From a virus, in the IMG/VR virus record IMGVR_UViG_3300027710_000134, positions 1 to 24,055 of that record: 24,055 nt of DNA, one strand, 5' to 3'. The notes under the pieces are model-generated. The model saw only the letters and a program-made list of their open reading frames with translations, made no database searches and was not told the DNA's origin. Shown one piece after another: positions 1 to 19,762 of this stretch (positions within the stretch are counted from its first letter, which is position 1; every line of letters begins with the position of its first letter). Made by a program: the position numbers and the translations under genes.

Positions 1-1
1 A

Positions 2-997: not shown

Positions 998-1037
998 CTT
1001 GGTTAAATCAACTTTATAATTTAGCAAAATACTAGTC

Positions 1038-1045: not shown

Positions 1046-1061
1046 ACAGAGGAAGATACAA

Positions 1062-1259: not shown

Positions 1260-1270
1260 ACTGGATAAAC

Positions 1271-4181: not shown

Positions 4182-4182
4182 A

Positions 4183-5385
4183 TTAATTATCCGCCTTTGG
4201 TTTAAGTGCTTTGCTCAATGCTTGACGTTCTTCAATAACTTTTCCACTAATTGTAGCAGTTGTTGTATTATTGATAAAACTTGTCTTTTGTGTTTCTCTA
4301 ATATGGAAACCTTGCCAAGGATCTTTAGCAACATCTTGTGCGCCAAAGTTATTCATTGTCATACGAACACCTTGCTCGTAGATGTTCCAACGTTTACCAT
4401 CGTATCTAAACAATGCATTGGGTAGGTAATCTGTTCGTAAATGATATTGACCATTACTAGGTTCACTTGGAAATGTAATTCCTGAACCAAATACTGCACC
4501 GTTTGGAGGAACACCATTTCCATTATTAAAGCCTACATACATATTTCCGCCAGGTGTTTGTAGAACCATACTGGCATCCATAGTTGTCATACTAGCATCG
4601 TCAACTGCATCGGATACATCGGCATAGTCTACTAGTCCAGTTACATCTGTAGGAATAATAAACATTTGATTTTTATCATATCCACTTAGTGGAGCATCTG
4701 CGTTTGCCTGTTCAATAATTTGATTATTAATTTCAATGCTCTTATTGTAAGTACTCATCAAATCACGCAGTGTGCTACCATCCCCTGCTCCTGCGTCAGC
4801 ATCTAAAATCTGTGCAAATTCTTGTGTATCTACTAATGGCTGACATTTAGCACGTAGTAAGTGAGGGTACCATGTTTGACTAAATCCACTTGCAGGACGA
4901 GAAACTTCTGTTACAACATAAAAACGCTTCAATGCAACTGTAGTATCGTCAAGTGCATACTCGTCTTTTAAGTGAGGAAGTTCTAACACATCACCTGGCA
5001 TAATTTTACGTTGAATTGTATCAACCGTATTACGCAAGTGGAAATGCATCATAATGTTATCGTTGTTTAAAAACAAGCCAAACTGACTTAGGTTAAATTC
5101 TAAGTCCTGCATAGTATAGATACCACGCATAATATATACATCAGGATCATATTTTCGATCTCTGTTTTCCATTAACAAGACATCTTGAATACCAATTTCA
5201 GGAATATTTAATCCTGAATTGTTAGGAGTTGTAGGAGTACTTTCCCCTTCTGCAGGAGCTCCGGTACCTATGTATTTGTGTACATAGATGTCTGTTCCCC
5301 CGACCTGAAATTGTTCATTAATTACACGGTCTAGGAACCTAAAATCTGGGCCTTTCTCCGGCTTATACAGTGATAGTCTTGGCAT
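4183..5385 (-). CDS. 14: Neck protein gp14 (enlarged)
   Basis: The core recalls T4 gp14: DVLLMENRDRKYDPDVYIM (68-86), then DLEFNLSQFGLFLNND (94-109) and IMPGDVLELPHLKDEY (128-143), matching the T4 pattern in which a 'FGM..' strand region precedes a 'GDLIYFP' turn. gp14 forms the neck with gp13 after DNA packaging and gates head-tail joining. Here the protein is 400 residues against 256 in T4. The extension (about 200-400) includes one Tyr-Asp-Gly-x-x-Trp module (307-338). The start at 5385 is supported by a perfect TATAAATA late motif on the minus strand ending seven bases before the ATG, and no Shine-Dalgarno is present. It is divergent from gp13, an arrangement unlike T4. Confidence 0.8.
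   Translation of the reverse strand: MPRLSLYKPEKGPDFRFLDRVINEQFQVGGTDIYVHKYIGTGAPAEGESTPTTPNNSGLNIPEIGIQDVLLMENRDRKYDPDVYIMRGIYTMQDLEFNLSQFGLFLNNDNIMMHFHLRNTVDTIQRKIMPGDVLELPHLKDEYALDDTTVALKRFYVVTEVSRPASGFSQTWYPHLLRAKCQPLVDTQEFAQILDADAGAGDGSTLRDLMSTYNKSIEINNQIIEQANADAPLSGYDKNQMFIIPTDVTGLVDYADVSDAVDDASMTTMDASMVLQTPGGNMYVGFNNGNGVPPNGAVFGSGITFPSEPSNGQYHLRTDYLPNALFRYDGKRWNIYEQGVRMTMNNFGAQDVAKDPWQGFHIRETQKTSFINNTTTATISGKVIEERQALSKALKPKADN
4372..4467 (-). repeat. gp14 copy of the Tyr-x-Gly-x-x-Trp module
   Basis: Residues 307-338 of gp14 read SEPSNGQYHLRT, then LFRYDGKRWNIYEQ. This is the same strand-turn-Trp pattern as the repeats in the sheath and in gp15. Confidence 0.5.
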
Positions 5386-5392
5386 AGTCTTG

Positions 5393-5400
5393 TATTTATA
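5393..5400 (-). promoter_or_regulatory. Late promoter TATAAATA for gp14-gp15-Nudix
   Basis: The minus strand reads TATAAATA, identical to the T4 late consensus. By T4 spacing, +1 falls at about 5387, two bases before the gp14 ATG (5385-5383). Confidence 0.75.
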
Positions 5401-5402
5401 GG

Positions 5403-5409
5403 CTAAATA
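5403..5409 (+). promoter_or_regulatory. Late promoter CTAAATA for gp13
   Basis: CTAAATA matches the late motif seen before other genes here. Six bases after its last A is 5415, the A of the gp13 ATG. Only two bases separate it from the divergent gp14 promoter. Confidence 0.65.
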
Positions 5410-5414
5410 TCATT

Positions 5415-6173
5415 ATGACTGAGAACGAAACCGAACGCCAAAAGATTGTTGAGTATGTACAGGCTATGCTGGGCGCCGGCATGGTTGATGTAGAACTTGA
5501 CCCTGTGCATTATAACACAGCAATAGACCGTGCCCTTAACAAATTCCGACAGCGAAGCACTAATGCTGTTGAGGAAAGTTACGGATTTTTAACTCTACAG
5601 GTAGATGTAAATGAATATACATTGCCTAAAGAAGTTATGAACGTTCGTCAGCTTTTCCGTCGCAGTATCGGATCACGTAGTGGTGGAGGCGAAGGCGGAA
5701 CATTATTTGAACCGTTCAACCTAGCCTATTCCAATACTTACTTGTTAGCAAGTTCTAACATGGGCGGTTTAGCAACATACTATGCGTTTGCCAGTTATCA
5801 AAAGCAAGTTGGTAAAATGTTTGGTAGTGATATTAACTTTACGTTCAATAAAACTACAAAACTATTGACAATTATGCAACGCCCTAGAGCAGAAGAAGAA
5901 CTACTATTATGGATGTATAACTATCGTCCAGACTTTAACCTACTGCAAGATCCATATGCAGGACAATGGTTAAAAGACTATTCTCTAGCAACTTGTAAAA
6001 TGATGCTAGGCGAAGCTCGTGAAAAATTCAGCCAGATTGCTGGTCCACAAAGCGGAACAAGTCTAAACGGCGCCGCACTAAAGGGCGAAGCCAAGGCAGA
6101 ACTAGAAGCTCTAGAGTTAGAATTGATCAACTACAAAGAAGGTGGAACTCCACTTACTTTCGTAATTGGCTAA
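5415..6173 (+). CDS. 13: Neck protein gp13
   Basis: The 252-residue protein shows the T4 gp13 layout: an N-terminal helix pair with YNTAIDRALNKFRQRS (33-48), EYTLPKEVMNVRQLFRR (67-83), FNLAYSNTYLL (101-111), a Gly-Gly-Leu-Ala-Thr-Tyr-Tyr segment (117-123), FTFNKTTKLLTIMQRP (142-157) and the helical end WLKDYSLATCKMMLGEAREK (185-204). T4 gp13 (309 aa) forms the neck collar with gp14 on the portal vertex. This copy is somewhat shorter. The start at 5415 coincides with the predicted late transcription start, and there is no Shine-Dalgarno. The gp14 gene lies divergently upstream, and a dNMP kinase gene with its own promoter follows. Confidence 0.85.
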   Translation: MTENETERQKIVEYVQAMLGAGMVDVELDPVHYNTAIDRALNKFRQRSTNAVEESYGFLTLQVDVNEYTLPKEVMNVRQLFRRSIGSRSGGGEGGTLFEPFNLAYSNTYLLASSNMGGLATYYAFASYQKQVGKMFGSDINFTFNKTTKLLTIMQRPRAEEELLLWMYNYRPDFNLLQDPYAGQWLKDYSLATCKMMLGEAREKFSQIAGPQSGTSLNGAALKGEAKAELEALELELINYKEGGTPLTFVIG

Positions 6174-6180
6174 AAAATAG

Positions 6181-6209
6181 TTGACACTTCCTTAAAAATA
6201 CATTAAATT
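6181..6209 (+). promoter_or_regulatory. Sigma70-like promoter for dNMP kinase
   Basis: A perfect TTGACA (6181-6186) is followed after 17 bases by TAAATT (6204-6209), or after 16 by TTAAAT. A ribosome-binding site AGGAG (6220-6224) then precedes the ATG at 6230. This is an early-type host promoter, unlike the late motifs of the flanking structural genes. The -10 is only approximate. Confidence 0.55.
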
Positions 6210-6229
6210 ATAGTATCGCAGGAGATACT

Positions 6230-6907
6230 ATGATTATTGGCTTCGTTGGGTTTATTGGTTCTGGCAAAGATACTGCCGCAGACTATTTGGTTAACTTTCA
6301 TGAATTTAGGCGAGATAGTTTTGCCAATACACTTAAAGATGCTGTAGCTAATGTGTTTGGATGGGATAGAACATTACTAGAAGGCCGCACAAAAGAAGCC
6401 CGCGAATGGCGAGAACAGGTTGATACGTGGTGGGCAGAACGTTTAGGGATGCCTAAACTTACACCTCGGTGGGTTTTACAATATTGGGGTACAGATGTGC
6501 TTCGTAATGCATTCCACGACGATATCTGGATTGCTAGCTTAGAAAATAAAATGCGTAAAACTGGTGACAACATTGTTATTTCAGATGTACGCTTTCCTAA
6601 CGAAATTAATGCAATTCATAATGCCGGTGGCATTGTAGTCCGTGTAAAACGAGGTCCTGATCCTGACTGGTATGATGCCGCAGTGAGTGCAAATAAAGGA
6701 CCAGACGGAAATTCTTCCTGGTCAATAAGCAAACGCAAGTTAGAAAAACTTGGAATCCATGCTAGCGAAACTGCATGGGTAGGTGGTAACATTGATTACA
6801 CTATTAATAATGATTCCACTATTGACGATCTGTTTGGTCAAATCAAAGGGCTATTGCCAACTGGTGAATTGTCAGACGATGTAAAAATTGTATTAGATAT
6901 TATTTAA
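6230..6907 (+). CDS. Deoxynucleoside monophosphate kinase (T4 gp1-like)
   Basis: The enzyme phosphorylates dNMPs to dNDPs for phage DNA synthesis. The N terminus is MIIGFVGFIGSGKDT, with a P-loop GFIGSGKDT at residues 7-15. An NMP-binding region contains FANTLKDAVANVFGWDR (31-47). VISDVRFPNE (116-125) supplies the Walker B/acidic region characteristic of this kinase family, and IHASETAW (176-183) matches the late LID-like segment. The 225-aa length is close to the 241 aa of T4 gp1. The start has a good AGGAG site and a sigma70-like promoter, so it probably is expressed earlier than its neighbours. It sits between gp13 and gp18, where T4 has packaging and tail genes. Its 3' end overlaps the convergent HNH gene by four bases. 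Confidence 0.9.
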   Translation: MIIGFVGFIGSGKDTAADYLVNFHEFRRDSFANTLKDAVANVFGWDRTLLEGRTKEAREWREQVDTWWAERLGMPKLTPRWVLQYWGTDVLRNAFHDDIWIASLENKMRKTGDNIVISDVRFPNEINAIHNAGGIVVRVKRGPDPDWYDAAVSANKGPDGNSSWSISKRKLEKLGIHASETAWVGGNIDYTINNDSTIDDLFGQIKGLLPTGELSDDVKIVLDII

Positions 6908-6930
6908 AAATCAGGGCGCAGATCGCCCTG
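6904..6930 (-). terminator. Intrinsic terminator inside the 3' end of the HNH gene
   Basis: On the minus strand, CAGGGCG-ATCTG-CGCCCTG forms a 7-bp GC-rich stem with a 5-nt loop, followed by ATTTTTAAATA. The stem lies in the last codons of the HNH gene, and the T run contains its stop. On the plus strand the downstream tract is CTTCCATTTT, so termination there would be weak. Confidence 0.7.
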
Positions 6931-7239
6931 CTTCCATTTTACACCTTCTTTGTGTAATACCCGCTGACAGTTAGCGCATACTGTTTTTAAGTTTGTGTAT
7001 CTTCCATTGGTTAGATTACCATCAACATGAAACACATTAAATGTTTCTGAGTGTTGACTCTTAAACCCGCATTTATCGCATTCGTTCTTTTTCTTATATC
7101 CGGATAACGCCCATAGCGGCTTTCCGTCCTTCCTGTCTCTTGAGCAATGGTCGCAGGTTGACCTATAAAATGGTTTACCTTCTTTGTAGTAGTTTACAGC
7201 CACAGGCCGCTCTCCGCATTTTTTACAAAGTTTTCTCAT
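6904..7239 (-). CDS. HNH-type endonuclease with zinc ribbons
   Basis: The 111-residue basic protein has two zinc-binding sets. The first is C5-x2-C8 with C29-x2-C32. The second is C54-x2-C57 with C88-x2-C91, which brackets the nuclease motif FHVDGNLTNGRYTNLKTVC (70-88). His71 and Asp73, followed by Asn residues and 'NLKTVC', fit the beta-beta-alpha-metal (HNH) fold used by homing and phage endonucleases. It would cut DNA; the target is unknown. It is on the minus strand, inserted among rightward genes, next to a dNMP kinase that also looks inserted. This suggests a mobile or cargo cassette. It has its own TTAAATA late motif (7270-7276) and a terminator in its 3' end. Confidence 0.8.
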   Translation of the reverse strand: MRKLCKKCGERPVAVNYYKEGKPFYRSTCDHCSRDRKDGKPLWALSGYKKKNECDKCGFKSQHSETFNVFHVDGNLTNGRYTNLKTVCANCQRVLHKEGVKWKQGDLRPDF

Positions 7240-7269
7240 ACCCGCCCTTTTTGTGCCCTTTTCTCCTTG

Positions 7270-7276
7270 TATTTAA
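7270..7276 (-). promoter_or_regulatory. Late-promoter-like motif TTAAATA for the HNH gene
   Basis: The minus strand reads TTAAATA about 30 bases before the HNH ATG. The predicted +1 is near 7264, giving a ~25-nt leader. It is back-to-back with the gp18 late motif at 7300-7306. Confidence 0.45.
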
Positions 7277-7299
7277 CCGCTATTTTTTACCATAAGCGA

Positions 7300-7306
7300 C
7301 TAAATA
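7300..7306 (+). promoter_or_regulatory. Late promoter CTAAATA for gp18
   Basis: The predicted +1 is about 7312, giving a 26-nt leader that contains a strong AAGGAG site (7325-7330) before the ATG at 7338. Unlike several other late genes here, the sheath gene has a normal leader, which fits a need for very high translation. Confidence 0.65.
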
Positions 7307-7337
7307 AAACAAAGTAAATCCACTAAGGAGTTTTAAG

Positions 7338-10277
7338 ATGGCAACATTACAATCACCAGGCGTAAGCGTATCAGTTATAGATGAGAGTTTCTATACTCCT
7401 GCAGGCGCCGGAACAGTTCCAATGATTTTCGTAGCAACTGGACAAGACAAAGCTAACGGATCCGGAACAGGAATCGCACAAGGCACAACAGCAGCCAATG
7501 CTGGCAAAGTTTGGGTAATCACAAGTCAACGTGATTTAACTGACACATTTGGTACACCGTACTTTGAAACTGATGCCGAAGGCAATTCAGTACACGGTGG
7601 TGAACTAAACGAATACGGCTTACAGGCTGCTTATAGCTTGCTAGGTGTTAGTAGCAAAGCGTACATTGTACGTGGCGATGTAAACACAAGCGAACTAGCA
7701 GCGTCTGCTAATGCTCCAACTGGTAACCCTGTTGCTGGTACATACTGGGTTTCAACAGATACAACTAAGTTTGGTATTAACGAGTGGAATAGTTCTACAG
7801 GTAAGTTTACTGTAAAAACTCCTCTTGTTATTGATAACAATAACATAGACAACACAGAAGTTTATGACGGTTCTGCACCAGCAGACGGATTTGGTACAGT
7901 TGGTGATTATGCCGTTGTTCTAACAAGCGACAATACTAACACAACATTCTACAAAACTTCTGCTGGTACATGGACTGAAGTTAAGACTGGTTTTGATAGC
8001 GGCAAGATTGTGGTACTTGCAGCTCACTATGATTATCCAGACTTTACAGCTGGCGGATTAAATGCAGATAACGGCAGTGTTTGGATCAAGACAACAACTC
8101 CAAGCAACGGCGCAGCATGGGATGTTCGTTATTTTAACGGAACTACATCTCAGTGGACTTCTACTACAGCTAACTTATATCCAAGTACAGCGGCAGCTAT
8201 TCAGAAGTTAGACGCTACTACCGGCGGAAACAAAATTGCATTAGGTACTGTTATCGTAGAATACGACTATAAGCACGGTGCAGGAGCATCCAACGCTAGT
8301 GCAAATTACAAATTATGGATTCGCTATAGAAACAGCCCAACTAGTATTACATTAACATCTACACAAGCATCTGCTGTTGGTGCTTTTACTATTAAAGAAA
8401 CACTAGCAAATGGTACATGGAGTGGCCCAGCCACAATTACATTGGCGCAAATTACCGACAAACTAGGTAAGCAAATTTCTGATAAAATCAATCAGAATTC
8501 TTCTTTAGTAAACGTAAATGCAACATGGGATCCAGTTACTAATAGACTAACAATTACTCACGCACTAGGCGGAGAAATGGTGTTTGAACAAACTACTAAC
8601 CAACCGTTAGTTGACTTAGGATTCAGCGAGTCTGTTGCAAACCTATACGACGGTTCTACATACGATGCATATGACTTTGTTGCTACAAACTGGAAGCCAT
8701 TGGTTTACGAAGCACAAACAACTGCTCCTGTAACAACTCCAGCAGACGGTACAAAATGGTTTGACTCTGGTCTTGATGTTGACATTATGTACAACAACGG
8801 AACAGAGTGGACTGGCTACTTGAACGCTTTCCCTGCATCGGATCCATTAGGACCAACAGTGGCAGCAAGTGCTCCAACTACACAACAAGACGGTTTATCT
8901 TCTCTTGTATTTGGTGACATTTGGGTTGATACTTCTAATCCAGACATGTACGGTAGAAACATTTATGTTTATGATGGTTCTGCTTGGGTACTACAAAACG
9001 TAGAAGATCACGATACACCAGACGGTTGGGTATTTGAAGATGCACGTTGGGGCGCAGCCGGCGCAGAAGCTGATGCCGCAAGTATTGTTGCATTACTATC
9101 CAGCGACTATGTTGATCCAGATTGTCCAGATCCTCGTGTATATCCACGTGGTACACGCCTATGGAATACACGCCGTAGCGGAAACAACGTAAAACAATAC
9201 CACGCTGGTTACATCGATATCAATTCTACAAACCCACGTCAGGGCGACGAGTCTATGGACTTGTACGCTCCAGATCGTTGGGTAACTGCTAGCCCTAACG
9301 ACTTGAAAGATGTTGGTCAGTTTGGTCGTTTAGCACAACGTAGTGTGGTTATCAAATCTCTAAAAGCAATGGTTACTTCTAACCAGGCTATCCGTGATAC
9401 AGATACACTAAACTTTAACTTGATTGCAACTCCTGGTTATCCAGAGCTAATGCAAAATATGGTTGAATTTAACGTAGACAACGGACAAACAGCGGTTATC
9501 ATTGGTGATACACCTTTCCGCTTAGAGCCAACAGGTACTGCATTGACTGCATACGGTAAGAACACTTCATTAGAAGCTGACAACAATGATGCCGCAGCAG
9601 TTACATATAGCACAGAACTAGCAATGTTCTATCCAAGTGGCTTTACAAATGACAACATGGGTAACAGTATTGTTGTTCCTCCAAGTCACATGATGATGCG
9701 TACAATTGTAAACAGCGATAACAAGAGTTATCTATGGTTTGCTCCAGCAGGTACACGTCGTGGTACAGTAGACAACGCTTCTAGTGTTGGTTACTTAAAC
9801 GAAAACGGTGAATACAAGACAGTAAGTCTGCACCAAGGTTTACGCGATGTATTGCAAGATCCAGCAGTTGCTATTAACCCAATTGCAACATTGCCAGGTG
9901 TTGGTTTAGTTAACATGGGACAACGTACTCGCGCTCAAAACGCAAGTGCATTAGACAGAATTAACGTAAGCCGTTTGATTGCATATCTACGTAGACAACT
10001 AGCTATCTTAGCAAAGCCATATTTGTTTGAACCTAACGATAGTCAAACACGTCACGAAGTTAAAGCAGCAGTTGATGCATTGTTAACTGAGTTGGTAAGC
10101 CAACGTGCTTTATACGACTTCTTGGTAGTTTGTGATAGTTCTAACAACACACCTGCAAGAATCGATCGCAGTGAACTATGGGTTGATATTGCTATTGAAC
10201 CAGTTAAGGCTGTAGAGTTTATCTACATTCCTTTACGAATCATGAATACCGGCGAAATTGCAGCCGGTTCGAAATAA
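7338..10277 (+). CDS. 18: Tail sheath protein gp18 (enlarged)
   Basis: This is the contractile sheath subunit. It begins MATLQSPGVSVSVIDESFYT and has the N-terminal sheath pattern VPMIFVATG and VWVITSQRDLTDTFGTPYF, then YGLQAAYSLLGVSSKAYIVR (93-112). The conserved C-terminal sheath domain follows: INPIATLPGVGLVNMGQRT, LDRINVSRLIAYLRRQLAIL, and a last strand region VKAVEFIYIPLRIM. The length is 979 residues against 659 in T4 gp18. The excess lies in about residues 120-560, built of repeated modules with a Gly-x-x-Trp strand and a Tyr-x-Gly-x-x-Trp strand (about 126-160, 177-217, 244-275, 467-495 and 522-554). These probably form domains projecting outward from the sheath. The start is clear, with AAGGAG eight bases upstream. 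gp19 follows after 15 bases. Confidence 0.95.
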   Translation: MATLQSPGVSVSVIDESFYTPAGAGTVPMIFVATGQDKANGSGTGIAQGTTAANAGKVWVITSQRDLTDTFGTPYFETDAEGNSVHGGELNEYGLQAAYSLLGVSSKAYIVRGDVNTSELAASANAPTGNPVAGTYWVSTDTTKFGINEWNSSTGKFTVKTPLVIDNNNIDNTEVYDGSAPADGFGTVGDYAVVLTSDNTNTTFYKTSAGTWTEVKTGFDSGKIVVLAAHYDYPDFTAGGLNADNGSVWIKTTTPSNGAAWDVRYFNGTTSQWTSTTANLYPSTAAAIQKLDATTGGNKIALGTVIVEYDYKHGAGASNASANYKLWIRYRNSPTSITLTSTQASAVGAFTIKETLANGTWSGPATITLAQITDKLGKQISDKINQNSSLVNVNATWDPVTNRLTITHALGGEMVFEQTTNQPLVDLGFSESVANLYDGSTYDAYDFVATNWKPLVYEAQTTAPVTTPADGTKWFDSGLDVDIMYNNGTEWTGYLNAFPASDPLGPTVAASAPTTQQDGLSSLVFGDIWVDTSNPDMYGRNIYVYDGSAWVLQNVEDHDTPDGWVFEDARWGAAGAEADAASIVALLSSDYVDPDCPDPRVYPRGTRLWNTRRSGNNVKQYHAGYIDINSTNPRQGDESMDLYAPDRWVTASPNDLKDVGQFGRLAQRSVVIKSLKAMVTSNQAIRDTDTLNFNLIATPGYPELMQNMVEFNVDNGQTAVIIGDTPFRLEPTGTALTAYGKNTSLEADNNDAAAVTYSTELAMFYPSGFTNDNMGNSIVVPPSHMMMRTIVNSDNKSYLWFAPAGTRRGTVDNASSVGYLNENGEYKTVSLHQGLRDVLQDPAVAINPIATLPGVGLVNMGQRTRAQNASALDRINVSRLIAYLRRQLAILAKPYLFEPNDSQTRHEVKAAVDALLTELVSQRALYDFLVVCDSSNNTPARIDRSELWVDIAIEPVKAVEFIYIPLRIMNTGEIAAGSK
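7713..8999 (+). repeat. Repeated Trp/Tyr-Gly-Trp modules in gp18 insertion region
   Basis: At protein level about five degenerate copies are visible. Landmarks are PVAGTYWVST...NSSTGKF, VGDYAVVLTS...SAGTWTEV, NGSVWIKTTT...YFNGTTSQW, ADGTKWFDSG...YNNGTEW and FGDIWVDTSN...YDGSAW. The spacing is irregular, and the copies are diverged, not exact tandem repeats. Confidence 0.6.
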
Positions 10278-10292
10278 TAAGGAGCATTAGAA

Positions 10293-10928
10293 ATGCCAAT
10301 CGCAAGTTTATCAAGATTTTCAGTTCCGCTAGACACAGACCAAAGCTCCGCAAGCCAAGGTTTGTTAATGCCAAAGTTAGCGTACCGCTTCCGTGTTACG
10401 CTAGTTGACTTTGGTGTTGGCGGCGCACCTGCAACAGAATTAACAAAACAAGTTATGACTGTTGATCGTCCAAAGCCAAGCTTCGACGAACAAGTTATAC
10501 ACGTTTACAATAGCCAAGTTAAGATCTTAGGTAAGCCTAAGTTTGATGACATCAAGTTGAAACTACGTGACGACATGACTAACTTAGTTACAAACAAAGT
10601 TGGTGAACAAATGCAGAAACAGTTTGACTTCTTTGAACAAGCTAGTGCTGCATCTGGTCTAGATTATAAGTTCACAACTTACATTGAAATCCTAGACGGT
10701 GGCAATGGTGCTTATCAGCCAATTCCACTAGAAACATTTGAAGTACAAGGTTGCTGGATTAAGTCTGTTGCATATGACGGAGGCGACTACTCCAAGAGTG
10801 ATCCACTAGGTATTGAATTAACTATCTGTTATGATAACGCATTACAGACAGTTGGTATTAACGGTGGACTAGTAGGCTTAGGCTTACCAGTCGGACGTAC
10901 AGTCGGAACAACAGCTATCGGTAGTTAA
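10293..10928 (+). CDS. 19: Tail tube protein gp19
   Basis: The 211-residue protein forms the inner tail tube through which DNA passes. The family pattern is visible: KLAYRFRVTLVDFG (29-42), a Val-Met-Thr-Val-Asp-Arg-Pro segment where the strand packs into the ring, DIKLKLRDDM (65-74), QKQFDFFEQA, YKFTTYIEILDG, and the late FEVQGCWIKSVAYDGGDYSK followed by LGIELTICYDNA. T4 gp19 is 163 aa, so this one has a longer N terminus and a Gly-rich C-terminal tail (VGINGGLVGLGLPVGRTVG). It is directly downstream of the sheath gene with an AAGGAG site (10279-10286 region). The pair is followed by a terminator. Confidence 0.92.
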   Translation: MPIASLSRFSVPLDTDQSSASQGLLMPKLAYRFRVTLVDFGVGGAPATELTKQVMTVDRPKPSFDEQVIHVYNSQVKILGKPKFDDIKLKLRDDMTNLVTNKVGEQMQKQFDFFEQASAASGLDYKFTTYIEILDGGNGAYQPIPLETFEVQGCWIKSVAYDGGDYSKSDPLGIELTICYDNALQTVGINGGLVGLGLPVGRTVGTTAIGS

Positions 10929-10945
10929 TACTTCCAAACAGAAAG

Positions 10946-10970
10946 AAGCTCGGGAAACCGGGCTTTTTTT
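10946..10970 (+). terminator. Intrinsic terminator after gp19
   Basis: AAGCTCGG-GAAA-CCGGGCTT forms a stem with a GAAA tetraloop and one G-U pair, followed by a run of Ts (10964-10970). It ends the gp18-gp19 transcript four bases before the next late promoter motif. Confidence 0.85.
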
Positions 10971-10974
10971 GTGG

Positions 10975-10982
10975 CATAAATA
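10975..10982 (+). promoter_or_regulatory. Late promoter CATAAATA
   Basis: Seven of eight bases match TATAAATA. Six bases after the last A is 10988, exactly the A of the downstream ATG. It starts four bases after the T run of the preceding terminator. Confidence 0.7.
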
Positions 10983-10987
10983 ATAAT

Positions 10988-12073
10988 ATGAGTAATGCAT
11001 TCCACAACTTTCTGAGCAATAACGGTCAAGGCACATCGTTTAAAGGCTATTCCCATGCGACTAACTTATATGTTAATGGCAATTTTAAAAATGCTCCAAA
11101 GTTTGGATTTTTATATTTTGTATCATTTAATATAAATGCTGAGGTTATTGGTAATAACAGTGCATGGTATAACAAAGGAAAAGATTATGTTGCCGGTATG
11201 TTGGTTAAAAGAATTGACATGCCTAAATTTAAAATCTCAACAGAAACAGTTAACCAATATAACAGAAAAACAAAGATACAAACCAAGATAGATTACGAAG
11301 CTGTAAGTGTTGAATTCCATGATGACAACAGCGAAATTACAAATAATCTATGGACTCATTATTACAAGTATTACTACGCAGACAGCAACTACGGCGATGC
11401 TGTAGGAGGAAGTGATTCATCCCCTGCATACGGAGATACAAAATATAATGAAAGATCTAATGCATACGGTTTTGATACTCCTAAACAAATACCATTTTTT
11501 AGAAGCATAGACATCTATGTTTTACACCAGGGCAATTTTACTAAAATAACTTTAGTAAATCCAATTATTTCTTCTTGGGACCATGATAGTTTAGAACAGG
11601 CAGGAACCAGTAAGATATTACAAAATAAGATGTCTTTGGTATACGAGGATGTATTTTATAATTACGGAGTTATCAAAGAGAACGAAGATGCCCAAGGATA
11701 TTCTGCTGTTTACTACGATAACGAACCTGGCTCATTATCAGTTGGCGGCAACATAGAAAATTCAAGACCGGATAATGTTGTTAATCAAGCCGCAGTTTTT
11801 GGACCTCCTCAAGATAATCCAAGACCTATTCCACAATACCCTTCTCCACAACCTCTTGAATATAGTCAAAGTCAGCTGAACAAATCATCTGCACAAATGC
11901 AACCTTCATATGCAACTCCGCGGCCTATTGGGTCAGGAACAGTTGGACTTGGACAAGCAAGACGCCCAAGTGGCTTTAGTATCTCTGGCATAAGCATTTG
12001 GTCAGGGTATGGCGGTCTACACGGAAAAGCAGTTGTACAGGCCGGCCCTATTAGATTGGTACTTAAGAAATGA
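10988..12073 (+). CDS. Tube-fold baseplate/tail protein (gp54/gp19-like)
   Basis: The 361-residue protein has the features of the phage tube-protein fold: an early FGFLYFVSFNI strand (residues 39-49), VKRIDMPKFKISTETVNQYN (73-92), KIDYEAVSVEFHDDNSEITN (99-118), a helix with WTHYYKYYYAD, and a closing segment RSIDIYVLHQGNFTKITLVNP followed by ISSWDHDSLEQAG and MSLVYEDVFY. This order matches T4 gp54, the tube initiator on the baseplate, as well as gp19. The C-terminal ~100 residues are low-complexity and rich in Pro, Gln and Ser, ending with a Gly-rich segment. gp54 is the likelier role, but a second tube or other baseplate protein is possible. The gene has its own late promoter with predicted +1 at the ATG, and its stop overlaps the next start (ATGA). 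Confidence 0.6.
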   Translation: MSNAFHNFLSNNGQGTSFKGYSHATNLYVNGNFKNAPKFGFLYFVSFNINAEVIGNNSAWYNKGKDYVAGMLVKRIDMPKFKISTETVNQYNRKTKIQTKIDYEAVSVEFHDDNSEITNNLWTHYYKYYYADSNYGDAVGGSDSSPAYGDTKYNERSNAYGFDTPKQIPFFRSIDIYVLHQGNFTKITLVNPIISSWDHDSLEQAGTSKILQNKMSLVYEDVFYNYGVIKENEDAQGYSAVYYDNEPGSLSVGGNIENSRPDNVVNQAAVFGPPQDNPRPIPQYPSPQPLEYSQSQLNKSSAQMQPSYATPRPIGSGTVGLGQARRPSGFSISGISIWSGYGGLHGKAVVQAGPIRLVLKK

Positions 12074-12429
12074 GTTACAGTAATCTCCCACCTTCACCAA
12101 CTAATTCTATCTCTGCTTCTGCAGATGGATTATATGTAAAACCTCTTGAATTAGATCCTGCAACATTTAACATGATGAAAGGGTTCTTTGAAAGCCGTCA
12201 ATTTGATAAGGTAGCCGCAGAAACTATTGCCGTTGCAATTATTAAACAGGCAAAGATGGATGGATATAATCCACTACAAGTACTAGATACATTAAAGGGC
12301 ATTGACTCTCTAACATTGAATTCGGTAGTATCTGATATATTAAACTTTAATAGATACAAAACAAGTATGTTAGGCCACTCATTAAATAATGCTCCATTTG
12401 AACCTATCGCACGAAATATTTTAGCATGA
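12070..12429 (+). CDS. Small conserved phage protein (119 aa), function unknown
   Basis: The start overlaps the preceding stop as ATGA, and its own stop overlaps the gp4 start in the same way, so all three genes are translationally coupled. The N terminus is Pro/Ser-rich (NLPPSPTNSISASADGLYV). Then comes a mostly helical body: ELDPATFNMMKGFFESRQFD, AAETIAVAIIKQAKMDGYN and QVLDTLKGIDSLTLNSVVSD, ending with NFNRYKTSMLGHS. No enzyme motif is present. The position between a tube-fold protein and gp4 suggests a virion or assembly role, possibly baseplate, but I cannot name it. Confidence 0.65.
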   Translation: MSYSNLPPSPTNSISASADGLYVKPLELDPATFNMMKGFFESRQFDKVAAETIAVAIIKQAKMDGYNPLQVLDTLKGIDSLTLNSVVSDILNFNRYKTSMLGHSLNNAPFEPIARNILA

Positions 12430-12869
12430 GTTTGAAATTCTCTAAGGGTGCTTACAAATTAAAGAACCCTGACAAATATGTAGGATCAAAAGATCCGGTA
12501 TATCGCAGTGGTTGGGAAATTGCAGTTATGCGAATGTGTGACGAAAATCCTGCTATTGAGCAGTGGGCAAGTGAGCCAGTAAGGATTCCGTATCGAGACC
12601 CACTTACTGGTAAACAGACTGTATATGTACCCGACTTCCTAGTAATGTTTATAGATCGCAATCAAAAAAAACATGCAGAGTTATGGGAAGTAAAGCCTGC
12701 AAATCAACAGCTAATAGAAAAAGTTGGTAAAAATCCATACAATCAAGCACAGTTTGTAAAGAATCAAGCCAAGTGGGCCGCAGCAAATATATGGTGTAGA
12801 AATCAAGGGATTAAGTTTCGTATCCTTAACGAGCACGATATTTTTCATAGCCCTGGTAAAAGTCGATAA
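12426..12869 (+). CDS. 4: Head completion protein gp4, PD-(D/E)xK nuclease-like
   Basis: The 147-residue protein matches the T4 gp4 (gp50/gp4) head-completion family in size and pattern. PVYRSGWEIAVMRMCDENP (24-42) is the conserved opening helix. QWASEPVRIPYRDPLTGK (46-63) leads to VYVPDFLVMF (67-76), and then ELWEVKPANQ (85-94). Asp70 in PDF with Glu88-x-Lys90 gives a PD-(D/E)xK nuclease-type active site, with Glu31 as a possible further acidic residue. In T4 the protein acts after packaging, before tail joining, possibly trimming DNA ends or blocking the portal. The start is coupled by ATGA to the upstream gene. The small terminase follows nine bases later. Confidence 0.85.
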   Translation: MSLKFSKGAYKLKNPDKYVGSKDPVYRSGWEIAVMRMCDENPAIEQWASEPVRIPYRDPLTGKQTVYVPDFLVMFIDRNQKKHAELWEVKPANQQLIEKVGKNPYNQAQFVKNQAKWAAANIWCRNQGIKFRILNEHDIFHSPGKSR

Positions 12870-12877
12870 GTAAAGAT

Positions 12878-13366
12878 ATGACAAAGAAACTTGAAGAACT
12901 TTTAAACTTGCCGCAAGCCGAAGAAGAACTCTTGGTTACGCCTGAGCCTGAACCGACAACTCCGCAACACGTAATTAGTTTAGAAGAAAAACTAGAAGAA
13001 TTTGATAAAATTGCTGCCGCATTACCTAGAGTAAAAGGGCTAGGCGATGTTAGCGATATGGAATTAGACGGTCTTGCTAGCAAGGCAGAACAAGCATACG
13101 ACGACCTAATGGACTTAGGAATGAATGTTGATCCTAGATACGGATCTCGTATGTTTGAAATTGCGGCACAAATGATGAATGCCGCTATTACTGCTAAAAC
13201 AAACAAGATTGATAAAAAGTTAAAAATGGTGGACTTGCAGTTAAAGAAGTTAGCTATTGATAAGAAAAATGGCGGGGGAGACAACAACGGAACAGTAGAA
13301 GGTGAGGGTTATATCCTAACTGACCGTAATAGTATCCTCGAAAAACTAAAGAATCTTAATAAATAA
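12878..13366 (+). CDS. 16: Terminase small subunit gp16
   Basis: The 162-residue length is nearly that of T4 gp16 (164 aa). The layout matches: an acidic N-terminal linker (LLNLPQAEEELLVTPEPEP), a central pair of helices with DLMDLGMNVDPRYGSRMFE (76-94) and AAQMMNAAITAKTNKIDKKL (96-115), forming the coiled oligomerising core, and a flexible C terminus with YILTDRNSILEKLKNLNK. gp16 regulates the gp17 motor and helps it select DNA ends. No Shine-Dalgarno is obvious; GTAAAGAT precedes the ATG. Its stop codon is overlapped by the next gene's late promoter motif. Unlike T4, gp17 does not follow directly: two genes intervene. Confidence 0.85.
   Translation: MTKKLEELLNLPQAEEELLVTPEPEPTTPQHVISLEEKLEEFDKIAAALPRVKGLGDVSDMELDGLASKAEQAYDDLMDLGMNVDPRYGSRMFEIAAQMMNAAITAKTNKIDKKLKMVDLQLKKLAIDKKNGGGDNNGTVEGEGYILTDRNSILEKLKNLNK
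13358..13365 (+). promoter_or_regulatory. Late-promoter-like motif AATAAATA
   Basis: The motif overlaps the gp16 stop codon. The predicted +1 is about 13371, two bases before the ATG at 13373. Confidence 0.55.
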
Positions 13367-13372
13367 TACACT

Positions 13373-13969
13373 ATGAAATCATTCAAAGAACTCCTATCTG
13401 AAAACGCCCAGCAAAAGAAATACGATTTCCGTGTTAAGGTTGCAGGAACGTTTTCCACCGAGCAAGAGACTAAGTTAAAGTCCATGCTTGAGCGTTACCA
13501 GGTAAACGCATTTAAGAAAGTAGGCGTAACACCTATTCAATCACTTCCGCTAGACTTTCCACAAGTTAAAAACTGTGAAGTTAGCATTTACGAAGTTACA
13601 TTAGACTACCCTACTACCCAACAAGAACTTACTGAGTATCTTACTTCCGGGTTAGAAGTTAGCAAACAAAATCTAGTTGTTCGCAAACCAGGTGAACCAA
13701 GCGAAGGTTACCAAGAAGAAACTCCAAAACGCGAAGGCGCTTTGTTACAAGATCCCGACTATAAAGAATCTCCAAATGCACAATTTGAAGACTTTTATGG
13801 TGACAAGTATAACAGCGGATTTGTAAAAGAACTGAATGATATTCTAAAACTACAACGCAAGGCACGCGGAGAAGAAATTCCTATGGAAGCTGCCGCCAAA
13901 TTCAACACTGATTCAACAGACAAACAAGAAAGTCTTTTAAAGTTTCAGGCACAGGACCTAAGGAAATAA
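13373..13969 (+). CDS. Putative head-core protein with capsid-targeting-like N terminus (198 aa)
   Basis: The protein opens MKSFKELLSENAQ. This resembles the T4 capsid-targeting sequence MKTYQEFIAEA, which directs internal proteins into the prohead and is cut by the gp21 protease after [IL]-x-Glu. The LSE/N junction would fit that cut. Residues 15-105 alternate strands and helices (YDFRVKVAGTF, ETKLKSMLERYQVNAFKKVG, CEVSIYEVTLDYPTT), suggesting a small alpha/beta domain. The rest is charged and probably extended, with QFEDFYGDKYNSGFVKELND and a helical, basic end. No named family is recognised. A late motif lies immediately upstream. The next gene begins two bases after the stop. A role inside the head is inferred. 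Confidence 0.6.
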   Translation: MKSFKELLSENAQQKKYDFRVKVAGTFSTEQETKLKSMLERYQVNAFKKVGVTPIQSLPLDFPQVKNCEVSIYEVTLDYPTTQQELTEYLTSGLEVSKQNLVVRKPGEPSEGYQEETPKREGALLQDPDYKESPNAQFEDFYGDKYNSGFVKELNDILKLQRKARGEEIPMEAAAKFNTDSTDKQESLLKFQAQDLRK

Positions 13970-13970
13970 T

Positions 13971-14849
13971 ATGCAAATGATCGACGTAATGAAGCGTTTA
14001 GCTGAGCTAGATGCTGGTAACCCAAACATTGTAAAAGAAAGCACTAACATTGAAGAATGTGGAATGATGCCAATGCCAGGAATGGGCGGCCAACATACTC
14101 CAGCTTCTATCAACATGACAGCTGATAGCGGCTCTGAACTAACAGGCATGCTACGTGACATTATGCAATTAGCAGGTGTACAACAAGCTGCTGAGCCAGA
14201 AGCTATTGCAATCGATATGCCACCAGCTGCTCTTACAGCAGAACCAATTGGCGATATCGGTGGAATGGATGAACCAATGCAATCTCCAGGCGACAAAATG
14301 CGTTCTGTTTTAGATAAACTAAATCCAGAACCAGCAGGTGATGAAGACGGTGAGCTTGGTGCGTTCCAAGGTGGAGACGATGAAGCCGGTGCAGAACCAG
14401 AGTTTGGTAATGACGGTGAAGATGGTGAGCCAGAAGACGACGAGGAAGAAGCAGACGAAGGACAATACGATAATAGTCCTGCAGATGCAGAACCAAAAGA
14501 GCCATTCAGTGCTAACGAGTTTGCTCATCAAGAAAATCAGCCAGGATCTGGCAACACCAGTTCTGGGCAAGAACGTCAACGAAACATGCCTACTGCTACA
14601 TTTGAAAACTTAATGAAAGAGTACAAGTCTTTCATTGGAGAAGCAGAAGAGGAAGAAACAGACGAAGGTATCATGGACAAAGCCAAAGCATTTGGTAAAA
14701 AAGTCCTAGACAAAGTTGGTCACGGCGATGACGAAGAAATGATCAAAGACTTGCAAAAGAAAGCAGGTGTGCCACAAACTGGTAAAAAGCCAGAGAAGGC
14801 AAACGAAAGCATGGAAGATATTTTAAAACTATCTGGCCTAAGCAAGTAA
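13971..14849 (+). CDS. Acidic protein with internal capsid-targeting-like peptide (292 aa)
   Basis: I do not recognise a named family. Residues 1-75 are mixed, with MIDVMKRLAELDAG and SELTGMLRDIMQLAGVQ. Residues 115-190 are extremely acidic and low-complexity (DGEDGEPEDDEEEADEGQ), resembling a scaffold or DNA-mimic linker. Residues 215-225, MKEYKSFIGEA, look like the T4 capsid-targeting/protease-cleavage peptide MKTYQEFIAEA, here internal. A basic helix follows (DKAKAFGKKVLDKVGHG). The C terminus is ESMEDILKLSGLSK, which repeats the DI-x-x-L-x-G pattern of residues 63-69. An alternative start at the Met at residue 3 (13977) is possible. A UNCG-loop terminator follows the stop. A head-core or scaffold-associated role is an inference. 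Confidence 0.6.
   Translation: MQMIDVMKRLAELDAGNPNIVKESTNIEECGMMPMPGMGGQHTPASINMTADSGSELTGMLRDIMQLAGVQQAAEPEAIAIDMPPAALTAEPIGDIGGMDEPMQSPGDKMRSVLDKLNPEPAGDEDGELGAFQGGDDEAGAEPEFGNDGEDGEPEDDEEEADEGQYDNSPADAEPKEPFSANEFAHQENQPGSGNTSSGQERQRNMPTATFENLMKEYKSFIGEAEEEETDEGIMDKAKAFGKKVLDKVGHGDDEEMIKDLQKKAGVPQTGKKPEKANESMEDILKLSGLSK
14613..14645 (+). other. Internal capsid-targeting/prohead-protease-like peptide
   Basis: This encodes MKEYKSFIGEA (residues 215-225), followed by EEEE. Six of eleven positions equal T4 MKTYQEFIAEA, including Met-Lys, Tyr, Phe-Ile and Glu-Ala around the expected cleavage point. Confidence 0.45.
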
Positions 14850-14866
14850 TAACACTTACTAAAACC

Positions 14867-14896
14867 AAAATAGCACCTCCGGGTGCTATTTTTTTC
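14867..14896 (+). terminator. Intrinsic terminator upstream of gp17
   Basis: AAATAGCACC-TCCG-GGTGCTATTT forms a perfect 10-bp stem closed by a C(UCCG)G tetraloop of the stable UNCG class, followed by a T run to 14895. It ends transcripts from the gp16 region just before the gp17 late promoter. Confidence 0.9.
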
Positions 14897-14904
14897 ATTA
14901 AATA
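14897..14904 (+). promoter_or_regulatory. Late promoter ATTAAATA for gp17
   Basis: The motif begins right after the T run of the terminator. Six bases after the last A is 14910, the A of the gp17 ATG. Confidence 0.7.
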
Positions 14905-14909
14905 AAGAT

Positions 14910-16499
14910 ATGGCAAATAATAAATCGTTAGAAGGTAAGTTAATCAAGACTGCACATACTACTCAGAAATTCACTGAGGAGGATATTGCGAACTTAATAA
15001 AATGCCAAGATCCTGTAACCGGTCCTGCATTCTTCCTTGATAATTACTTCTTCATCCAACATCCTACTAAGGGTAAAATTCAATATCAAGCATTTGAATA
15101 CCAACGTGATTTATTAAAAAGTTACAACGATCACCGCTTTAGCGTTAACATGCTTGGGCGCCAGATGGGAAAGACCACAACAGCCGTAGGCTATTTGCTA
15201 TGGTACGGTATGTTCGTACCCGATAGCACAATTCTTATCTCGGCGCACAAATATACAGGTGCTCAGGAAATTATGCAACGTCTACGTTATGCATACGAAA
15301 CCTGTCCAGACTGGATTCGTGCCGGTGTTACAAGTTACAACAAACAGTCAATTGAATTTGACAACGGATCACGTATTGTTGCACAAACAACAACCGAAAC
15401 AACTGGTCGAGGTATGTCTGTATCGCTACTATACTGCGACGAGTTTGCATACGTTGAACCTAACATTGCTACAGAGTTCTGGACTTCTATTTCGCCTACA
15501 CTAGCAACTGGTGGTAAAGCAATTATCACAAGTACTCCTAACAGTGACGAAGATCAGTTCTCATTAATTTGGCGAGAAGCAAACAAACGTCTTGACGAAT
15601 TTGGTAATACAACTGTAGTTGGTAAGAATGGATTTGCACCATATATGGCAATCTGGAATCAACATCCAGATCGCGATGATAAGTGGGCAGGGGAAGAAAG
15701 ATCCCGTGTAGGTGATGAACGTTTCCGACGAGAACACGAATGTGAATTCATTATCTTTGATGAAACGTTGATCAATAGTATTAAACTTGCTGATATGGGA
15801 GGAATTGAGCCTATTATGAAAATGGGACAATGCCGCTGGTACAAGAAAATTAATCCTAGGCATACATATCTGGTTGCGCTTGACCCATCCTTGGGAACAG
15901 GTGGTGACCCTGCTGGTATACAAATTATAGAACTACCTAGCTTTGAACAAGTAGGAGAATGGCATCATAATTTAACACCTATACAAGGACAAGCACGTAT
16001 CCTGAGAGACATTTGCCAGCACATAAACGACGAATGTACTAAGAAGGGTGCAACGCTTAGTCTGTATTATAGTGTAGAAAATAACTCCGTAGGTGAGGCT
16101 GCATTAGTTTCAATTAGCGAAATGGGCGAAGAAAGTATACCTGGATTATTCCTAAGTGAGCCAATTAAGAAAGGGCATGTACGCCGCTATCGTAAGGGAT
16201 TCTATACAACAGCAACAAGTAAGATTGCTGTATGTGCTAAATTAAAACATCTATTAGAAAGTAATAGAATGAAACTTAACTCTAAAGCAGTAATTTCAGA
16301 GTTAAAAACCTACATTGCTAAAGGATTAAGTTTTGAAGCAAAAACAGGGCAACACGACGACTTAGTTAGTGCGCTATTGTTAGCTGTACGTATGGCAATG
16401 GTGTTGCAAGACTGGGATCCAGCAATTTACGATAAAATGCGTGAAGAACGCGAAGATGAATGGGTAATGCCAATGCCTGTATATGTCAGCTCGTTTTAA
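14910..16499 (+). CDS. 17: Terminase large subunit gp17
   Basis: This is the DNA-packaging motor. The chosen start gives 529 residues (T4: 610). A longer frame from GTG at 14883 is rejected because that codon lies in the terminator stem. ATPase landmarks are the adenine-binding YQRDLLK (64-70), Walker A GRQMGKTT (83-90), Walker B LLYCDEF (173-179, with catalytic Glu) and coupling motif STPN (208-211). The nuclease domain has VALDPSLG (322-329, Asp325), VENN (389-392) and QHDDLVSA (481-488), the RNase H-like acidic triad. The N terminus is short. It is preceded by a terminator and a late promoter with predicted +1 at the ATG, and no Shine-Dalgarno is seen. The 693-aa gene follows 13 bases after the stop. 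Confidence 0.95.
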   Translation: MANNKSLEGKLIKTAHTTQKFTEEDIANLIKCQDPVTGPAFFLDNYFFIQHPTKGKIQYQAFEYQRDLLKSYNDHRFSVNMLGRQMGKTTTAVGYLLWYGMFVPDSTILISAHKYTGAQEIMQRLRYAYETCPDWIRAGVTSYNKQSIEFDNGSRIVAQTTTETTGRGMSVSLLYCDEFAYVEPNIATEFWTSISPTLATGGKAIITSTPNSDEDQFSLIWREANKRLDEFGNTTVVGKNGFAPYMAIWNQHPDRDDKWAGEERSRVGDERFRREHECEFIIFDETLINSIKLADMGGIEPIMKMGQCRWYKKINPRHTYLVALDPSLGTGGDPAGIQIIELPSFEQVGEWHHNLTPIQGQARILRDICQHINDECTKKGATLSLYYSVENNSVGEAALVSISEMGEESIPGLFLSEPIKKGHVRRYRKGFYTTATSKIAVCAKLKHLLESNRMKLNSKAVISELKTYIAKGLSFEAKTGQHDDLVSALLLAVRMAMVLQDWDPAIYDKMREEREDEWVMPMPVYVSSF

Positions 16500-16506
16500 C
16501 TAAATA
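16500..16506 (+). promoter_or_regulatory. Late promoter CTAAATA
   Basis: The motif begins one base after the gp17 stop. The predicted +1 is 16512, one base before the ATG at 16513. Confidence 0.65.
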
Positions 16507-16512
16507 AGCATT

Positions 16513-18594
16513 ATGAAAGCAATTCAAATAATCTCCCAAGACCTGTTCGACAAAGTTCGCAGCCGTTTCCAAAATTTAGAAATGGGCGACGAAACAGGTG
16601 CAGTTACCATTGATCCAGCAAATGCTCGTTTCTTTGACTTTGACTTCGTAGCAGAAGGTAATAACTTAGGTCGTGTTAGCATCAGTTTAAACGATCTTGG
16701 AAGTTTAAAAGTTTACTACAGTCAAGGTATTACAGAAAATCAAGACGACCCTGCAAAAAAGAGCTGGTACAGTTTTTTAAAAGAAATGAGATTTTTTGCT
16801 ATGCGAAGATTATTAAGATTTGATACTCGCGACATCGCTAAGACAAATCTAGACAAGAATGATTTCCAACATCTTGCTACTACACAAGGCCCTAAGGAAG
16901 AACCCGATATGACACAAATGAACGAATCTCGTTGGAACAACAAAAGTACCAAAAAAACAAGTCGCGCAGTTAAGGGACGTACAGAAGTTATCGTTCGTCA
17001 CAATTCCGCAGTTGACGAAATGTATCCAGGCGCACGTAGCCAAAAGAAAAACATCAAGGCAATCTTTATTCAGAACGCAGATGGTGAAAGGTTTAAGTAT
17101 CCATTCATTCACCCAGCGGGCGCATTCGCTATGGCACAACACGTTGATCACGGTGGCGTTCCACATGATGCAGCAGGCAAGGCAATTATCACAATGAGTG
17201 AACAAATTGCTCAACTACAAGAATTCCAGCGTAAAATTCACAGCTCTACTCTGCACGATGACGCAACAGGTATTACAGAACGAGCCATAGGCCGATTACA
17301 AGAATTAAAAGCAAGAGTAGACGCATTAGGTAAATGTCACCACTACGAATCGTGGGTTGCAGAAATGAATGGGCAACCTACCGCTGGTGACGATATTATG
17401 GAACTAGATGCTGTTACTATGGAACAGTACAAACAAGCATTTACACAAACTAGTTTCCAAGAAGAATTATCAGGATACTTCCCATTATTGCACAGAATCA
17501 TGAGTGAAACTAACAAGGTTGATTTAGAAGACTATGTTAGCGAAGCCGATGAAGAGAAATGTAATGAGTGCGGAATGTATGAAAGTAAGTGCGAATGTGA
17601 TCACGAAGATAACGTTAAAGAAAGCGCATTTGACTCATTTGAAAACTGGGCAGAAGCAGTTGAACAAGGCAAATTAGCCGATGACGAAATTGAAGGATTG
17701 AAACAAGCAATCGCAGATACAGCAGAATTAAAATTAGGTCCTGACGGTCAAACAGCATGGCAATTTTTCAACAACTTTGGTTTAGATGATCGCGATCTAG
17801 AAGATAAATTTAAGGCAGCAGCAGAAGTAGACCCAGAAACAGATCCAATGGAAGTGTTTAAGTTATGGGCAGATGAGAACTATCCTGAACTAACAGTAGC
17901 ATTAGGAATGAGCGGAGATATGGCACCACCAGAAGAACCTGCCGCTCCAGAAGCACCACCTGTTGAACCAGGCGCAGAACAACCAACTGCTGAAAACGAA
18001 GAAGATAAAGGTATGGAGCCTGTAATGTCTCGTGAAGGTGTTATTAAAGAAGTTGCTAAAATTGTTAAAAGTTTTTATAACGCAGACAATCCAGATGTTG
18101 GCCCATTCCGCGGCGGCGAAGGCATTGCACTAGATTGCAAGAAACAAATTGCAGAAAAGTTTGGTGACAAAGCCGGTGCATTTGCAGAAGAAATGGCTGG
18201 CAAGTTTATTGATAAACTAACACAAGAGTGGCACCAGAAACACGGTCATGTGGCAAATGGTCACGGTGACGATGGACTAGCAAGACTAAAAGAATTACTA
18301 GGCAACGTTAAACAAAAAGTTGAATCTATGGGCGGCGACACAGGTGTTCCACCAAGTAACATTATGGCAGGCGAGGAAAAGAATCCTCAACATAGTCACC
18401 AGTATGACACCACAATGAAACACGCAGACAATCCAACTGTACAGCAACGTATGGCAGCACACGATATCAAACCTGGTATCAAAGGCTACCGCGATCGTAT
18501 TGACTTATTAAAAGATTTGGAAAGAACTGGTAAATTAAAATCAGAAGAATCCGCATTTGAAGCCATTATGAGATTGGCAAACTACAAAAAATAA
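16513..18594 (+). CDS. Large unknown protein downstream of gp17 (693 aa)
   Basis: I cannot assign a family. Residues 1-110 have strands and helices (ARFFDFDFVAEG, RVSISLNDLGSLKVYYS). Residues 130-280 are basic with KNIKAIFIQNADGERFKYPF and a helical HPAGAFAMAQHVDHGG. Residues 350-364 hold a Cys/His cluster C-x2-C-x6-C-x-C-x-H that could bind zinc. Residues 465-500 are a Pro/Glu/Ala linker. Residues 505-575 form a compact helical domain (VIKEVAKIVKSFYN, VGPFRGGEGIALDCKKQI). The C terminus, ESAFEAIMRLANYKK, resembles that of the 292-aa protein. The promoter, position and multi-domain acidic character fit a virion or assembly protein, perhaps a head component, but this is inference. It has no signal peptide or membrane helix. 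Confidence 0.65.
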   Translation: MKAIQIISQDLFDKVRSRFQNLEMGDETGAVTIDPANARFFDFDFVAEGNNLGRVSISLNDLGSLKVYYSQGITENQDDPAKKSWYSFLKEMRFFAMRRLLRFDTRDIAKTNLDKNDFQHLATTQGPKEEPDMTQMNESRWNNKSTKKTSRAVKGRTEVIVRHNSAVDEMYPGARSQKKNIKAIFIQNADGERFKYPFIHPAGAFAMAQHVDHGGVPHDAAGKAIITMSEQIAQLQEFQRKIHSSTLHDDATGITERAIGRLQELKARVDALGKCHHYESWVAEMNGQPTAGDDIMELDAVTMEQYKQAFTQTSFQEELSGYFPLLHRIMSETNKVDLEDYVSEADEEKCNECGMYESKCECDHEDNVKESAFDSFENWAEAVEQGKLADDEIEGLKQAIADTAELKLGPDGQTAWQFFNNFGLDDRDLEDKFKAAAEVDPETDPMEVFKLWADENYPELTVALGMSGDMAPPEEPAAPEAPPVEPGAEQPTAENEEDKGMEPVMSREGVIKEVAKIVKSFYNADNPDVGPFRGGEGIALDCKKQIAEKFGDKAGAFAEEMAGKFIDKLTQEWHQKHGHVANGHGDDGLARLKELLGNVKQKVESMGGDTGVPPSNIMAGEEKNPQHSHQYDTTMKHADNPTVQQRMAAHDIKPGIKGYRDRIDLLKDLERTGKLKSEESAFEAIMRLANYKK

Positions 18595-18645
18595 TTGGCA
18601 AAATAAACCATATTTCAAGCGCCATTTAGGTTGCTTTAATAAATA

Positions 18646-18680
18646 AAACTGTGCATACTAAACACATGCACAGTTTTTCT
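18646..18680 (+). terminator. Intrinsic terminator before gp32
   Basis: AAACTGTGCAT and ATGCACAGTTT form a perfect 11-bp stem with a 9-nt loop, followed by TTCTTTTT. It separates the late block from the replication block. Confidence 0.85.
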
Positions 18681-18692
18681 TTTTAGTCAGTG

Positions 18693-18719
18693 GGCTTTAA
18701 AGAAGAGGCATAATATAAC
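18693..18719 (+). promoter_or_regulatory. Possible early/middle promoter for gp32
   Basis: TATAAC (18714-18719) is a fair -10 with no good -35. GGCTTTAA (18693-18700) lies 13 bases upstream and partly resembles the T4 MotA box. An AAGGAA ribosome-binding site follows before the ATG at 18739. Whether this phage has a MotA protein is unknown. Confidence 0.35.
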
Positions 18720-18738
18720 ATTTATTAAGGAAATCATT

Positions 18739-19749: not shown

Positions 19750-19762
19750 TTAGGGGACTAGC

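Follow-up and report, generated by a model that had tools for sequence, protein, structure and literature searches.

The late genes of bacteriophage T4 are a textbook system, and their mRNAs carry leaders with a Shine-Dalgarno (SD) sequence. In 32 T4 pairs of a late promoter box and an ATG the two elements are spaced 13-52 bases apart, giving leaders of about 8-47 nt, most of which, judged by eye, contain an SD-like sequence; no pair lacks a leader. PMC2988020 numbers the T4 late box (8 bp) from -13/-12, in agreement with the placement at -13 to -6 used in the preliminary description of the DNA analysed here. The leaderless status of bacterial TA-led genes was inferred from the position of the -10 box (PMC3160421), and the same reasoning is followed below. 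It is very probable that the T4-type late promoters of the present phage and its relatives are placed to produce leaderless or near-leaderless mRNAs, next to late genes that are SD-led.

Late promoters and start codons of the window

The window is a 24,055-base IMG/VR fragment (IMGVR_UViG_3300027710_000134) from a T4-type phage. Its gp17 has its nearest cultured match in the PA5oct-like Pseudomonas jumbo phages (53.6% identity), and the gene order is similar to that of PA5oct. The comparison set consists of 80 IMG/VR loci with a related gp17 (61-94% identity). These loci are mutually related, and the site counts given below therefore represent non-independent events. A search of bacterial genome contigs with gp17 for the host of the clade gave no match. 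The window opens with a gene for a DUF401-type membrane protein (2-991), which is truncated by the window start, is followed by TAAATA directly after its stop codon and occurs in none of the related loci fetched. It is possibly host-derived or an assembly chimera. Clade contig G002 (259 kb) has a cluster of about 20 tRNA genes near one of its ends, within positions 1-20000.

Six genes of the window start a few bases downstream of a TAAATA box. The spacing k, defined as the number of bases between the end of TAAATA and the ATG, is 5 for gp13, the tail-tube-like gene and gp17, 6 for a 693-aa gene, and 7 for a 198-aa gene and gp14. The boxes (TATAAATA/TAAATA), together with the AT-rich segment downstream, are those of T4-type late promoters.

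The gp13 promoter (5404-5417, plus strand) has its box at 5404-5409, followed by five bases and the ATG at 5415; the gene (5415-6173) codes for a gp13-like neck protein (PHROG head-tail adaptor Ad2) and is predicted to be leaderless. The gp14 promoter lies on the minus strand (5383-5400), where the box TATAAATA, ending at 5393, is followed by seven bases ending in ACT and by the ATG (5385-5383) of a gp14-like virion protein (4183-5385) with a predicted 3-nt leader. The two divergent late promoters share a 29-bp intergenic region (5386-5414). All the following features are on the plus strand. The promoter at 10977-10990 (box end 10982, N5, ATG 10988) lies just 3' of an intrinsic terminator hairpin with a T run (10941-10970; -17.6 kcal/mol, z -4.6) and serves a gene (10988-12073) that is predicted to be leaderless; its product had been labelled gp54-like, and it matches PHROG tail-tube families instead. 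The promoter of the 198-aa gene (13360-13375; box end 13365, ATACACT, ATG 13373) overlaps the stop codon of the preceding gene, and a 3-nt leader is predicted for this virion structural protein (13373-13969). An intrinsic terminator, AAAATAGCACC-TCCG-GGTGCTATTTTTTT (14867-14895; -15.6 kcal/mol, z -6.4), adjoins the gp17 promoter (14899-14912; box end 14904, N5, ATG 14910), and its T run ends three bases before the box. The gp17 large terminase gene (14910-16499) is predicted to be leaderless. The last of the six promoters (16501-16515; box end 16506, AGCATT, ATG 16513) precedes the 693-aa head/virion structural protein (16513-18594), for which a leaderless mRNA or a 3-nt leader is predicted.

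Two other late genes provide the contrast. The TAAATA box of the gp18 sheath gene (7301-7306) precedes a predicted 26-nt leader that contains AAGGAG and ends at the ATG at 7338 (7301-7340). Downstream of the gp32 box, a leader of some 88 nt that includes an SD sequence runs to the ATG at 18739 (18640-18741). An AGGAG-like sequence was sought just upstream of the six short-spaced genes and is absent from all of them. The six distances, the missing SD sequences and the gp18 leader are thus as the preliminary description gave them. With 23 gene starts and three allowed spacings, about 0.02 short-spacing coincidences are expected by chance, against the six observed. On both strands, TAAATA occurs 15 times in the window, compared with 29.7 expected from shuffles, and in the clade genomes it reaches 0.41-0.50 of expectation. 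Such under-representation is expected of a functional site.

Spacing and probable site of initiation in related genomes

Among 877 TAAATA sequences in the 80 loci, 210 are followed by an ATG at k=5, compared with about 12 at most other spacings. When each box was paired with the first downstream ATG opening a frame of at least 60 codons (624 sites, 80 contigs), the distribution was bimodal, with 304 sites at spacings 4-7, 15 at 8-16 and 166 at 17-35. The preliminary description had named random spacing in relatives as an observation that would speak against it; the spacing is clearly non-random. Its division of the late genes into two classes is also borne out: predicted leaders are either 0-3 nt long and without an SD sequence or at least 12 nt long and, in conserved families, usually with one, and few genes lie between. 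The k=5 peak recurs in all five larger contigs when these are analysed one by one, and control AT-rich hexamers produce sizeable peaks only at positions of overlap with TAAATA.

The spacing is a property of the individual gene families. It equals 5 in 68 of 81 sites of the gp17 family, 51 of 60 of the tail-tube-like family and 16 of 21 of the gp13 family; SD-like sequences are found in one, none and none of these sites, respectively. In the gp14 family, k=7 in eight of nine sites. The k=5 rule is not universal within families. Of the 67 sites of the 198-aa family, 34 have k=7 and 11 have k=5, and the spacing is longer in some relatives; the 693-aa family is mixed, with spacings of 4-7 at 75 of its 116 sites and longer ones in some members. 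The five bases between box and ATG comprise 97 distinct sequences in 178 genes, and only their length is constant.

The bases around the predicted start are consistent with initiation there. Of 178 k=5 genes, 175 have T or C immediately before the ATG, the pattern that a Y(-1)A(+1) initiator would give; among SD genes the count is 52 of 110. The start codons at k=5 (178 ATG, one GTG and two TTG) fit the AUG preference of leaderless genes but do not discriminate, as SD genes also mostly use ATG. In the SD-led genes of relatives, a purine occupies the sixth position after the box at 34 of 35 gp18, 34 of 36 gp19 and 40 of 42 gp32 sites (108 of 113 together), although neighbouring positions are purine-rich in gp18 as well. 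This purine indirectly supports the T4 rule for +1, independently of any ATG.

Applied to the window, the rule places +1 on the A of the ATG in gp13, the tail-tube-like gene and gp17, as was first proposed. For the 693-aa gene, the 198-aa gene and gp14, the start had been placed one to two bases upstream of the ATG. The spacings of 6, 7 and 7 hold, and a start at the T or C in that position appears less likely than one on the A of the ATG or three bases upstream. Strict use of the rule puts the +1 of k=7 genes on a C; the base before it, fifth after the box, is an A in 98% of cases, followed mostly by CT and ATG, across unrelated families. The conserved A makes a 3-nt ACU leader likelier than a 2-nt one, and the likeliest 5' end of these mRNAs is this A rather than the C that follows it. 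Judged by their sequences, genes with k=6 and k=7 probably start either on the A of the ATG or three bases upstream.

An alternative is that the promoter is real and initiation is shifted or scattered, many transcripts then having a leader of 4-10 nt and another mode of translation. The occurrence of spacings 4, 6 and 7 is in its favor. So is a cyanophage-like gene (NRNFLSPTGFKF) from the viral collection, in which a terminator and a TAAATA box are followed by some 5-6 nt of A-rich leader. The sharpness of the k=5 peak, the pyrimidine at -1 and the trough at spacings 8-16 make such scatter unlikely.

Terminators and SD-led late genes

In relatives, the stem of the gp17 terminator varies in sequence and retains its pairing. 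A T run lies 1-4 bases upstream of the box in 60 of 160 distinct k=5 sites, and 47 of these 60 have a hairpin, compared with 10% of shuffles. Among the matches listed for T6-N3-TAAATA-N5-ATG in the viral collection, 79 of 118 open frames of at least 100 codons, and 76 of these have a pyrimidine at -1; among those listed for the N10 counterpart, 34 of 119 do so, and many of these frames represent a single cyanophage-like gene whose A-rich leader is short. In the sample inspected (L320-L438), the gene NRNFLSPTGFKF repeatedly shows the order terminator, TAAATA box, A-rich leader and ATG, and perhaps represents a further class with very short leaders. The annotated start of PA5oct gp17 (L084, 28847) sits within a terminator-like hairpin, and the in-frame ATG that follows (MAAEDY) seems the more probable start.

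The families of gp18, gp19 and gp32 have k of at least 17 in relatives, mostly with an SD sequence; for gp18, k is 26-34 in most relatives and an SD sequence is present in 34 of 37. In all six sequences read, from four clade contigs and two Pelagibacter phages, the major capsid gene gp23 has an SD sequence and no TAAATA in the preceding 60 bases. The portal gene gp20, in four contigs, is leaderless-like (k=4) in one, SD-like in another and ambiguous in two. A link between low copy number and leaderless starts is suggestive only. Throughout the clade, the gp32 leader (window 18640-18741) has a hairpin and then a T run near the predicted +1, a candidate autoregulatory or 5'-stabilising element. 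In the HNH endonuclease gene (window 7239, minus strand) and its relatives, AAGGAG directly follows the late box, about 20 nt before the ATG, which is probably too far for ordinary SD use; the box spacing of this gene is 25-32 in most relatives.

AU-rich sequence 5' of start codons can aid translation in SD-poor hosts, and TAAATA-N5-ATG might thus be an RNA translation signal within longer transcripts instead of a promoter that sets a leaderless end. This is very unlikely, in view of the terminator directly 5' of the box at gp17, the presence of that box 17-100 nt before SD genes, where the predicted +1 is a purine, the strong peaks of other AT-rich hexamers only when they overlap TAAATA, and the gp55 genes of the relatives. 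It is likewise very unlikely that the start codons, which in the window were predicted from sequence alone, are mis-assigned and that the real starts lie downstream behind SD sequences, the promoter giving an ordinary short leader: ATG is nearly the sole start codon at k=5, conservation begins directly after the predicted Met in the 198-aa (MKxFKEYL), gp14 (MPRLSLYKPEKG) and 693-aa (MKAIQIISQDLF) proteins, and the 198-aa homologue of PA5oct begins at the equivalent Met. That homologue stands behind an SD leader, which indicates that the same gene changes its mode between lineages.

Distribution, probable mechanism and known systems

Clade contigs G002, G003, G005, G006 and G007 all have the k=5 peak, as does the cultured phage HTVC008M of the Pelagibacter/SAR11 host group (12 sites, among them one with its ATG at 75830). 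Relatives among the Pelagibacter phages have 24 k=5 sites, mostly in close relatives of HTVC008M. The peak is weaker in the cultured phage Mosig (six sites), and Melnitz has three sites. It is absent from T4, Syn9, P-SSM2, PA5oct and phiM12, and from the parts read of Vibrio phage 2.275.O, S-PM2, Atu_ph07, Phosso and KVP40. The trait is thus not general for T4-like phages, being missing in T4 and the cyanophages examined. Host class was considered as the cause and rejected, as the alphaproteobacterial phages phiM12, Atu_ph07 and Phosso (the latter two in part) have no peak. As the window is a 24-kb fragment, gp55 was sought in relatives: a gp55 gene (phrog_12791) was found in all six clade contigs above 100 kb that were searched (G001-G006; E ~1e-85), and also in HTVC008M, PA5oct and T4.

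By combining these data, it is possible to describe how the late genes might be expressed. A gp55-type late sigma factor on the host RNA polymerase would read the T4-type late promoters. At a spacing of 5, and perhaps 6, transcription would begin on the A of the AUG; at a spacing of 7 it would begin on the A three bases upstream, producing the leader ACU. The mRNAs of gp13, gp14, gp17, the tail-tube-like gene and the 198-aa and 693-aa genes, apparently mostly low-copy virion or packaging genes, would have no leader or almost none, and their translation would rely on recognition of the 5'-AUG, without SD pairing. The abundant capsid, sheath and tube proteins and gp32 would be translated from SD leaders, with the same box at a longer spacing for sheath, tube and gp32 and with only the SD sequence seen for the capsid. 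A terminator adjoining the promoter, as at gp17, may insulate the gene from upstream transcripts. The sequences strongly suggest leaderless late mRNAs and translation from them; the 5' ends, this translation and any purpose in gene dosage are inferred. The efficiency of leaderless translation is host-dependent, which counts against the explanation, as do the longer-spaced members of the 198-aa and 693-aa families.

Several possible aids to leaderless initiation were considered. The three Met-tRNAs read in two clade contigs are not initiator-like by eye, and on these three a phage initiator tRNA was rejected. A phage-encoded IF3 was looked for and none was found. Phage bS21, present in HTVC008M and PA5oct and absent from the clade contigs, does not correlate with the trait.

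More speculatively, and with considerable doubt, aquatic T4-type phages might have a genome-wide late code of two modes, in which the distance from promoter to AUG picks leaderless (low-copy) or SD-led (high-copy) expression. The position of the promoter would then help to set virion stoichiometry, which may also vary with the state of the ribosomes in the infected cell. This offers a testable idea on how virion stoichiometry is set. If the leaderless reading is true, lytic phages employ leaderless translation at scale, in a whole T4-type clade and in cultured SAR11 phages, and the spacing gives a sequence rule for the annotation of start codons in these genomes.

No account of leaderless late mRNAs in T4-type phages was found in the open-licence literature. 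The T4 late promoters (gp55/gp33/gp45, TATAAATA) have the same box, clade relatives encode a gp55 homologue, and the purine at the sixth position in the SD-led genes of the clade is consistent with the T4 start site. The late promoters of phiKZ, a jumbo phage, have a TATG start-site motif that overlaps an ATG-like sequence (PMC7598289); phiKZ, however, uses its own multisubunit RNA polymerase and has no TAAATA box, whereas the clade encodes a gp55-type sigma factor. The bacterial TA-led leaderless genes (PMC3160421) similarly have a -10 box about 12 bp before the start codon and no SD sequence, but their boxes are of the sigma70 type, whereas the box described here is a phage late box common to neighbouring SD-led late genes. 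The leaderless cI mRNA of phage lambda is likewise a phage mRNA that starts at the AUG, as is predicted here from the sequence; it represents one gene, in contrast to a class of late genes conserved across a clade.
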